Of a stretch of 9,013 nt of DNA, positions 2,041 through 5,374 are shown piece after piece (within the stretch, counting starts at the first letter, position 1; each line of letters opens with the position of its first letter). A program made the translations under genes and the position numbers. The notes under the pieces are model-generated. The model was not told where the DNA came from, made no database searches, and was given only the letters and a program-made list of their open reading frames with translations. Origin of the DNA: a bacterium (GTDB taxonomy: Bacteria; JAHJDO01); NCBI GenBank assembly GCA_030611945.1, contig JAUWOV010000070.1:1-9013 (forward strand). The letters run 5' to 3'.

Positions 2041-2754
2041 ATGACGTATAAAAAAGAATTAAACTCCTTAAAATCCCCTGTAATTATAGCGCTGGATGTA
2101 GATAATCTGAAACAGGCAGAAATACTTGTAGAAGAACTTAAGGATTATGTGTCCGTTTTTAAAGTAGGGAGCCAGCTATTCACAAGCCAAGGGCCTGCTA
2201 TTATAGATTTCATTCATGAGAGGGGTTGTAAAGTATTTTTAGACTTAAAATTTCACGATATACCCAACACAGTGTCCTCAGCAGTTGGCAATACAGTTAA
2301 AAAGGGTGTTTTTATGCTGACAGTGCATGCATCCGGTGGAATAGAGATGATGCGTTCTGCATATGAAGCAGCACAATCCCAAACCATTCTTTTAGGTGTT
2401 ACAGTTCTCACCAGCATAGATGAGGGAATTCTAAAAAATGATCTACACATAAGTGCTTCTATAAAAGAACATGTTTCACATCTTGCAAAAATGACGAAGA
2501 TTGCAGGTTTAGATGGCGTAGTTGCCTCTTCAGAAGAAACAAAATATATTAGACAGACCTGCGGAAAAGACTTTCTAATTGTTACCCCGGGAATAAGATT
2601 TACTGACTCAGATAAAAATGATCAGAAACGAACAGCCTCTCCTGCGCAAGCTATTAATGAAGGCGCTGATTTAATAGTAGTTGGAAGATCTATTACCAAA
2701 GCTTCCAGTCCAAAACATACAATGAAAATGCTCATAAAAGAAATTAATGAGTAG
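2041..2754 (+). CDS. pyrF: Orotidine 5'-phosphate decarboxylase
   Basis: PyrF decarboxylates orotidine 5'-monophosphate to UMP, the last step of de novo pyrimidine synthesis, in the cytoplasm. The 237 residues are the normal length for the short bacterial family and form one TIM barrel. Visible are IIALDVDN (D19), VFKVGSQLF (K41), and the signature LDLKFHDIPNTV with the catalytic D68-x-K70-x-x-D73 array. LTVHASGG (H96), VTPGIR (181-186, phosphate region) and GADLIVVGRSI with R216 (phosphate binding) follow. All key residues are present. The ATG is the first after an in-frame TAA at 2032-2034. No Shine-Dalgarno is visible upstream, which is unusual beside its neighbours. PyrE, which makes its substrate, is encoded two genes downstream. 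Confidence 0.97.
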   Translation: MTYKKELNSLKSPVIIALDVDNLKQAEILVEELKDYVSVFKVGSQLFTSQGPAIIDFIHERGCKVFLDLKFHDIPNTVSSAVGNTVKKGVFMLTVHASGGIEMMRSAYEAAQSQTILLGVTVLTSIDEGILKNDLHISASIKEHVSHLAKMTKIAGLDGVVASSEETKYIRQTCGKDFLIVTPGIRFTDSDKNDQKRTASPAQAINEGADLIVVGRSITKASSPKHTMKMLIKEINE

Positions 2755-2780: not shown

Positions 2781-3737
2781 ATGAAGACAATGTTTAGAAT
2801 CTTGGAAACTTGGATTTTGAATTTGTTTCAAGTATTCGGATTTAGGGTTTCGGATTTTAGTAGATATATGACTAATTTAGAGTCCAGAGAAAAATTAAAA
2901 CGAGAACATGTAAGAATTGGTGTAGCTTTGAAAATCTGCGCCAAGCATGAATATAGAATGGATCTTTGTGACAGCAATGTTATAGATATTAGTGAAACCG
3001 GACTATGTTTTAAAACAGATATTCCTTACCTTGTAAAAAGCGAATTGGAACTTGAAATGGAATTTCCGCAAGACTTTGGAGCAAAAGAGGAAACCCGCTC
3101 TTTTTATGCACTATCAGAGATTAAGCAGGTCAAAAAAACAGGGAAGGGCATGTATCTAACAGGAGTAGAATTTAAAAAAGTTTATCCGCGTTTTAAAAGA
3201 AGATTAAATAAATTCTTAAAAATGGAATTGGAGAAGAAAATGCGAGCATGTATAATTTATTTTTCATTAACCGGAAATACACACCAATTAGCCCAAATGA
3301 TCTCACAAGGATTAAAACACAAGAACTTTGACGTTGATTTAGTGAGATTAGAACCAGTTAATGGAGCAAAGACATTCGCTGGACAGGGCATGACAGCCCT
3401 GCAAAGGAAAAGGGTTAATATTGGTGATGTTAATTTTGACTTGAGCATGTATGACCTGATATGGTTTGGTTCACCTGTCTGGGCTTTCAGCCCGGCACCG
3501 GCATTAAATACCTATCTGGATAAATGCCATGGGCTTGACGGGAAAAAGGCTGTAGTGTTTTATACATATGGAAGCGGCACAGGAAAGGGCAGAGCTGTGA
3601 GAATTGTTAATAAGATGTTAGAACATAATGGAACAAAATCCATGCATTCTTTATTAATCGCACAAAGAGACCTAAAAAATTCTCAAGATATTAATAACAA
3701 GGTAAATGAGCTTTTAGAAAGCATATTACAAAAATGA
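2781..3737 (+). CDS. PilZ domain-flavodoxin fusion protein
   Basis: One uninterrupted frame of 318 codons joins two domains. Residues about 36-150 are a PilZ domain, the c-di-GMP receptor module, with both ligand motifs intact: REHVR (RxxxR, R41 and R45) and DISETG (DxSxxG, D69, S71, G74). Residues 154-318 are a flavodoxin-like FMN domain. It has the phosphate loop YFSLTGNT (160-167), IWFGSPVWAFSPAPAL (227-242) around the isoalloxazine site, and YTYGSGTGKG (261-270). No membrane segment or signal peptide is evident, so it should be cytoplasmic. The ATG at 2781 has no Shine-Dalgarno and its first 29 residues look like translated repeat DNA, so M30 (2868) is the likelier start. GGAG six bases before M154 (3240) could also start a free flavodoxin. 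It ends in an ATGA overlap with pyrE. Redox control by c-di-GMP is conceivable; the actual role is unknown. Confidence 0.8.
   Translation: MKTMFRILETWILNLFQVFGFRVSDFSRYMTNLESREKLKREHVRIGVALKICAKHEYRMDLCDSNVIDISETGLCFKTDIPYLVKSELELEMEFPQDFGAKEETRSFYALSEIKQVKKTGKGMYLTGVEFKKVYPRFKRRLNKFLKMELEKKMRACIIYFSLTGNTHQLAQMISQGLKHKNFDVDLVRLEPVNGAKTFAGQGMTALQRKRVNIGDVNFDLSMYDLIWFGSPVWAFSPAPALNTYLDKCHGLDGKKAVVFYTYGSGTGKGRAVRIVNKMLEHNGTKSMHSLLIAQRDLKNSQDINNKVNELLESILQK
2791..2860 (+). repeat. Repeat-like AT-rich patch forming the N-terminal codons of the PilZ frame
   Basis: The stretch contains short internal duplications: CTTGGA at 2801-2806 and 2809-2814, and TTCGGATTT at 2835-2843 and 2849-2857. It is a run of TTGGA, GAATTTG and TTCGGATTT units. 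Translated it reads ILETWILNLFQVFGFRVSDF, the style of degenerate dispersed repeats known from several candidate phyla and often absorbed into gene starts. It follows the palindrome at 2755-2774 closely, as if the two had inserted together. Identification is by resemblance only; no other copy lies in the window. Confidence 0.4.
3230..3242 (+). promoter_or_regulatory. Internal ribosome-binding site and start at the flavodoxin boundary
   Basis: GGAG (3230-3233), six spacer bases and an in-frame ATG (3240-3242) sit exactly where the PilZ domain ends and the flavodoxin domain begins (MRACIIYFSLTGNT). This is a better initiation site than either candidate start of the full frame. It suggests that a separate 165-residue flavodoxin is made as well as, or instead of, the fusion, or that two genes were joined by loss of a stop codon. 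Confidence 0.5.
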
Positions 3738-4318
3738 AACAATATGAAGTCTTGGATCTCTTTAGAAAGCGAAATGCCCTTCTTGAAGGCCATTTTCTGC
3801 TCTCTTCAGGTCTTCATAGCAGTCAATATATTCAATGCGCTAAGGTTCTCCAGCATCCAGAGTGTGGAACTAAACTTGGGAAAGCTATTGCAGAGCTTTT
3901 TCAACATATACAATGCGATGTAGTTGTATCTCCTGCAATTGGAGGAATTCTAATTGCACAGGAAGTTGCGAGAGCCCTGGGTATTAGAGCTATATTCTGT
4001 GAAAGAAAAGATGGGAAAATGATTCTTCGGAGAGGATTTGAAATTAAAAAAGGAGAACAGGCACTCATTATTGAAGACATTATTACTACAGGCCGCTCGA
4101 CTATGGAAGTTATTGCAACTGTAGAAAGTTTCAAAGGCTGCAGTGTTGGCATTGGTGCAATAATTGATAGAAGTGAGAAAAAAATTAACTTTCCTGTAGA
4201 ATTTAAGAGCCTTGCTAAGTTAAGTTTTAAAAATTATAATTCTGGCAATTGTTTAATATGTAAACAGGGAAAAATCCCTTTAGTAAAACCCGGGAGCAGA
4301 GAAAAAATAGAAGTTTAG
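3734..4318 (+). CDS. pyrE: Orotate phosphoribosyltransferase, Thermus-type
   Basis: PyrE transfers the phosphoribosyl group of PRPP to orotate, giving OMP for PyrF. The 194 residues match the short Thermus-type family rather than the 213-residue E. coli type. Visible are GHFLLSSGLHSSQY (19-32), VSPAIGGILIAQEVAR (65-80), the ERK loop (90-92) and the PRPP-binding motif ALIIEDIITTGRS (110-122, acidic pair E114-D115). The C-terminus has NCLICKQGKIPLVKPGSR (172-189), whose CxxC is typical of this subfamily and might bind metal, though that is not shown. The start overlaps the fusion gene's stop as ATGA, so translation should be coupled. The TAG stop lies within the aroC ribosome-binding region. 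Confidence 0.96.
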   Translation: MKQYEVLDLFRKRNALLEGHFLLSSGLHSSQYIQCAKVLQHPECGTKLGKAIAELFQHIQCDVVVSPAIGGILIAQEVARALGIRAIFCERKDGKMILRRGFEIKKGEQALIIEDIITTGRSTMEVIATVESFKGCSVGIGAIIDRSEKKINFPVEFKSLAKLSFKNYNSGNCLICKQGKIPLVKPGSREKIEV

Positions 4319-4327
4319 GAGGTATAT

Positions 4328-5374
4328 ATGTTGCGTTATCTTACAGCAGGTGAATCACATGGGCCAGGTCTTACAGCTATTCTTGAGGGCATGCCGGCCG
4401 GATTGAGAATAAATAAGACAGAAATAAACAGAGAGCTTGCAAGAAGACAGTCTGGATATGGCAGAGGTGAAAGGATGCAGATTGAGCATGATACTGTTCA
4501 AGTAACCTCTGGACTGCGCACGGGATTAACACTTGGCTCGCCGATTACAATGATCATAAAAAATAAGGATTGGCAGAACTGGAAAAATGAACCTCCTATA
4601 ACAAATCCAAGACCGGGACATGCTGATCTTGCTGGTATACTAAAATACAATCAGCAAGATATAAGGAATATCCTTGAGCGCTCAAGTGCTCGCGAAACAG
4701 CAGCTAGAGTTGCAGTTGGCGCAATTGCTAAAAAGCTGCTTAATAAATTTGGCATAGAGATTATGAGTTGTATATGTGAAATTGGTGGTGTGGAAAAAAA
4801 CGAAAAACTAATGAGAGAAAAAATAGACCAAGCACGAAAAAACGGCGATAGTCTGGGAGGCATATTTGAAATAACAGTAAAGGATGTTCCCGTAGGATTA
4901 GGATCTCATGTGCATTGGGACAGAAAGCTGGATGGAAGACTGGCTCAATGTTTGATGAGCATTCAAGGAATAAAGGGTGTTGAAATAGGGCTTGGATTTG
5001 CTGCATCAAAAAAACCAGGCTCAAAGGTTCATGATGAAATAATATATGATTATAATTTTAGGCGAAAGACTAATAATGCAGGTGGAATTGAAGGAGGTAT
5101 TTCAAACGGAGAGGATATAGTTATCCGCGGAGCAATGAAACCAATTCCAACTATTAAAAAGGCTCTCAACTCAGTAGATATAATTACAAAAAAAACTGTT
5201 AAAGCAAAAGTAGAGCGTTCTGATGTTTGTGCGGTTCATGCTGCAAGCGTTGTAGGCGAAGCAGTTGCAGCATTTGAAATTGCGAACGCTATGTGCGAAA
5301 AATTTGGCGGAGACAGTATAAAAGAGATGAAGCGAAACTACAATTCCTACGTCAGAATGATAGGAAGGATTTGA
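4328..5374 (+). CDS. aroC: Chorismate synthase
   Basis: AroC removes phosphate from 5-enolpyruvylshikimate 3-phosphate to form chorismate, the branch point to aromatic amino acids, folate and quinones; it needs reduced FMN. The 348 residues are at the short end for the family but look complete. Evident motifs are [20 protein letters not shown] (6-25), [60 protein letters not shown] and the C-terminal [18 protein letters not shown]. In the last motif histidine stands where many homologues have proline, a mild variation. The ribosome-binding site AGGAGG (4317-4322) overlaps the pyrE stop and lies five bases before the ATG. No other shikimate-pathway gene is present. The nearby flavodoxin might supply reduced flavin, but that is speculation. 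Confidence 0.97.

Follow-up and report, generated by a model that had tools for sequence, protein, structure and literature searches.

This locus raises the question of whether a PilZ domain and a flavodoxin are genuinely encoded as one protein and, if so, what such a protein would do. The window, i.e., the whole stretch of 9,013 nucleotides analyzed here, is a single contig from a 1.66-Mb draft genome. The open reading frame at 2781-3737 on the forward strand contained no internal stop codon. A single stop-free frame with both domains above the Pfam cut-offs was found, with copies in five genomes, in agreement with the initial annotation of a PilZ domain fused in frame to a flavodoxin. The gene and its immediate surroundings are made up as follows.

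2868..3737, + strand: pilZ-fld fusion gene, starting at ATG 2868 and encoding 289 amino acids plus a stop.
2868..3239, + strand: PilZ half, residues 1-124, with R12xxxR16, D40xS42xxG45 and a predicted six-stranded barrel plus helix 107-123.
3240..3734, + strand: flavodoxin/FMN_red-type half, residues 125-289, with an SLTGNT loop at 133-138 and SPVWAFSPAPA at 202-212.
3226..3242, + strand: joint, GGAG-AAGAAA-ATG (ATG at 3240), a ribosome-binding-like site and the likely ancestral flavodoxin start, read through.
2784..2861, + strand: copy of an interspersed repeat of ~75 bp, immediately 5' of the gene and very probably outside the protein.

The in-frame ATG at 2781 likely lies outside the gene, and ATG 2868, the start chosen in the initial annotation, is the better one, because 2784-2861 is an interspersed repeat that is missing 5' of the gene in one other species (G003). 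A coding N-terminal extension at 2781-2867 was therefore rejected. In G003 the fusion gene starts inside the 3' end of pyrF. The ribosome-site signal of the PilZ start itself is weak. The repeat precedes the fusion gene in three species, and over 20 partial copies of it are scattered through the genome, mostly at 72-84% identity. A short palindromic repeat (GGGGCACAGC/GTGCTGTGCCC) lies at 2752-2776 of the window and recurs at several other places in the genome as an exact 25-nt copy; it was not seen at the corresponding place in two other genus members (G004 and G002). The exact joint between the halves is at 3237-3240 (residues 124-125), slightly 3' of the boundary first placed near 3230.

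The PilZ half matched PF07238 with 28.7 bits in the full protein and 31.8 bits alone (cut-off, 22.5). The two motifs linked with c-di-GMP binding, RxxxR and DxSxxG (PMC8322970, PMC10333796), read R12-EHV-R16-IGV and D40-I-S42-ET-G45, in agreement with the initial annotation, and were present in every genus copy covering those positions. Among 21 PilZ sequences compared, S42 and G45 were invariant and R12 and R16 nearly so. Modeled alone (pLDDT, 83.3), this half gave the six-stranded barrel with a C-terminal helix (107-123) that is expected of a PilZ domain, and its best structural matches were MotI/DgrA (Z 16.1), 4xrn, a Pseudomonas aeruginosa PilZ protein solved with c-di-GMP (Z 14.9), and the PilZ domain of Alg44 (Z 14.5). 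Certain PilZ domains function without binding c-di-GMP (PMC10333796), and this one might likewise have lost its ligand and serve the flavodoxin as a scaffold for protein-protein docking. This is very improbable, since both motifs are intact in all four copies that extend far enough 5', and DxSxxG is visible in the fifth (G001), which is cut at residue 20 by a contig edge.

The flavodoxin half scored above the cut-offs of FMN_red (32.6 bits in the full protein and 34.9 bits alone; cut-off, 24), Flavodoxin_4 (30.5 and 32.7 bits; cut-off, 24) and Flavodoxin_1 (29.1 bits; cut-off, 25). Its score against TIGR01753, the classical short-chain flavodoxin, was 43.8 bits versus an equivalog cut-off of 123, and it is thus not classed as such. 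The FMN-phosphate loop, (S/T)xTGxT, is present as S133-L-T-G-N-T138, so that the TGNT loop is intact as first described. In the full-length model this half was mostly confident, with many blocks at 90-95, and the top Foldseek matches were flavodoxin-fold proteins (flavodoxins, WrbA and FMN reductases). The PilZ half of the full-length model had low confidence and there was no usable domain interface, so no interface is claimed. In the predicted models, helix 107-123 ends two residues ahead of flavodoxin strand 1, with almost no linker between them.

The fusion was open in all five examined species of an uncultured bacterial genus, with copies 82-92% identical. An assembly error removing a stop at the boundary, one of the cases that the initial annotation had named as refuting the fusion, was rejected because the frame is open in five genomes. 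The linker codons TTG GAG AAG AAA ATG were found in every copy, and the only length change at the joint was a whole in-frame codon, an extra GAG in G002. The five copies formed one clade (support, 99/98). Both halves are under purifying selection: in well-separated pairs, on which dN/dS was judged (close pairs had too few synonymous changes), the ratio was ~0.15-0.24 for the PilZ half and 0.06-0.26 for the flavodoxin half. Taken from sequence, the fusion is a real domain combination that is kept across the genus, with a putative function; being confined to a single genus, this conservation spans a limited time. Synonymous divergence among G004 (L024), G001 (L022) and G002 (L026) was lower in the PilZ half (0.05-0.15) than in the flavodoxin half for the same pairs (0.22-0.44), and recombination at the joint is possible. 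Two genus members are the metagenome-assembled genome (MAG) records CSMAG_1431 and CSMAG_1337. A global cold-seep catalogue names its MAGs with the CSMAG prefix (PMC10491686), and a cold-seep origin is thus likely for these two.

The neighborhood of the fusion gene is conserved as well, including the following genes.

2041..2754, + strand: pyrF, the conserved upstream neighbor.
3734..4318, + strand: pyrE, the conserved downstream neighbor, whose ATG overlaps the stop of the fusion gene.
4328..5374, + strand: aroC, a conserved neighbor encoding chorismate synthase, a reduced-FMN enzyme.

The order pyrF, fusion, pyrE, aroC, atpD, ispD, ispF, polX was kept in the four genomes whose contigs are long enough, with ~900 bp inserted in the aroC/atpD interval of G002; the short contig of G001 carries the fusion, pyrE and aroC. 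Two specific roles suggested by these neighbors were considered. The monofunctional form of chorismate synthase must obtain its reduced flavin from outside (PMC7144000), but a flavodoxin serving this enzyme was not adopted, as the neighborhood is the sole argument for it. A role as electron acceptor for dihydroorotate dehydrogenase, suggested by the pyr cluster, was weakened by the DHODB-type Fe-S-binding, PyrK-like proteins encoded elsewhere in the genomes. Further upstream in the window, a gene at 346-1341 on the reverse strand encodes a 331-amino-acid protein whose ThiI/MnmA-like N-terminal matches are partial and under the cut-off.

The nearest relatives outside the genus were stand-alone flavodoxins of ~160-173 amino acids (profile E-values, 1e-35 to 1e-42); all came from other phyla, and further genera of the fusion's own phylum were not represented among them. 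These proteins, of the Flavodoxin_4/FMN_red type (PDB 4ici, 4j8p and 2mwm/3edo), share the SxTGNT loop and the SPVWAxxPAPA segment with the fusion, and the nearest are 36-42% identical to its flavodoxin half over the domain, but they lack a PilZ half, and PilZ genes are absent from their fetched flanks. No separate pilZ gene was found beside the flavodoxin gene in the fetched flanks of the relatives with our own PilZ profile, which detected the control loci. The search for homologues covering both halves, as the initial annotation had called for, gave the five genus species and no match outside the genus in ~580 genomes or 72,556 plasmid records. The long-frame matches L063 and L135-L137 were rejected as fusions; their N-termini are leader- or membrane-like, not PilZ. 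In L052, L053 and L057, the stand-alone relative lies near an apparent receiver-only response regulator gene, as judged by eye.

Nearly all of the stand-alone flavodoxins begin at or beside the methionine corresponding to residue 125 of the fusion. Since only separate flavodoxins, starting exactly at this position, were found in the ~580 genomes outside the genus, the fusion probably arose in a single event, in which the stop of a pilZ gene directly upstream of an intact flavodoxin gene would have been lost. A recent accidental joining, as offered in the initial annotation, may thus be right as to the route, yet the joint is shared by all examined genus species and has been kept. A neutral read-through between cotranscribed genes, leaving the two domains with their old, unrelated jobs, is consistent with a join made exactly at the ancestral start without an added linker and with the restriction to a single lineage. 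It is nevertheless quite unlikely, because the frame is kept in five species even with a codon insertion, a re-split gene was found in none of the five, and fusion of PilZ to another enzyme has occurred more than once in this genus.

The old flavodoxin start also bears on the number of products. The GGAG placed 6 nt before Met125 means that some free flavodoxin may still be made, and it is conceivable, though on the whole unlikely, that the flavodoxin acts mostly alone, with the PilZ half tethering or localizing part of the pool and redox activity not being gated directly. GGAG-AAGAAA-ATG was retained in 5/5 copies, the codons TTG GAG AAG AAA showed no synonymous change, the predicted anti-Shine-Dalgarno pairing (-6.4 kcal/mol, and -9.3 in G002) is comparable to that of the atpD and ispF starts, and Met125 is the start in nearly all stand-alone relatives. 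Against this, the Shine-Dalgarno-like signal ranks only 19th among 167 in-frame internal ATGs, and such a run of unchanged codons is nothing out of the ordinary in these genes. The internal-start signal is only suggestive of a second product.

A c-di-GMP-responsive flavodoxin is the preferred reading of the fusion, and from the sequences we give it about an even chance. Gating of an electron carrier by c-di-GMP is possible because the ligand motifs of both domains are intact and each of the genus genomes encodes GGDEF proteins (diguanylate cyclases); the window's genome had 7 GGDEF and 13 PilZ matches. The PilZ half would bind c-di-GMP at RxxxR/DxSxxG, and binding would shift the helix beside the flavodoxin; a short, near-rigid helix running from a ligand-binding domain to an FMN domain is a plausible relay. 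The shift may alter the docking of the FMN domain with redox partners, or its location, and the delivery of electrons or reduced flavin would then track the c-di-GMP level.

Other PilZ fusions were seen in the genus. These include a PTS EIIA-PilZ fusion (L106, 1152-1970), a Ser/Thr kinase-PilZ fusion (L107, 1984-3135) and FHA-PilZ fusions in two genomes (L114, 769-1746; L122, 1583-2581). PilZ was also found at the N-terminus of an ABC ATPase (L110, 1462-2592 in G000:C76; L119, 837-1967 in G004:C92); in L110 the gene lies between mlaE and mlaD and is an apparent PilZ-MlaF, through which c-di-GMP possibly controls phospholipid transport. In the searched literature, the sole co-mention of PilZ, MlaF and c-di-GMP was in a proteomics study. 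A broader reading is that the N-terminal PilZ domain puts the delivery of electrons or reduced flavin by the flavodoxin directly under c-di-GMP, as one of several PilZ fusions across the genus through which c-di-GMP would control redox supply, lipid transport (via PilZ-MlaF), protein phosphorylation and PTS regulation. This reading is tentative and falls somewhat short of an even chance.

Motility, exopolysaccharide and transcription are the main fields in which c-di-GMP receptors are known. The conserved PilZ-flavodoxin would be a direct link from c-di-GMP to a soluble redox carrier, and the wider set of fusions suggests that c-di-GMP may touch core metabolism in this lineage. No PilZ-flavodoxin protein was found in the literature searched, in line with the initial annotation, which knew of no well-described example; the combination is apparently new among PilZ-regulated proteins and unreported. 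The PilZ receptors MotI/YpfA, YcgR and the PilZ domain of Alg44 share the barrel with a C-terminal helix and the RxxxRhxh and DhSxxG motifs with the fusion (Z, ~12-16), but the partner here is a flavodoxin instead of YcgR-N, a glycosyltransferase or a membrane part. Effects of PilZ domains on enzymes attached to them are known, and covalent attachment of PilZ could let c-di-GMP act on the joined enzyme or chaperone. In the cellulose synthase BcsA, PilZ is attached to an enzyme but lies C-terminal to the catalytic part, in contrast to its N-terminal position here, and BcsA contains no redox carrier. The PilZ-DnaK proteins CsdK1/CsdK2 of M. xanthus provide a precedent in which an N-terminal PilZ domain, as here, is covalently joined to a chaperone rather than to a redox carrier (PMC10313047).
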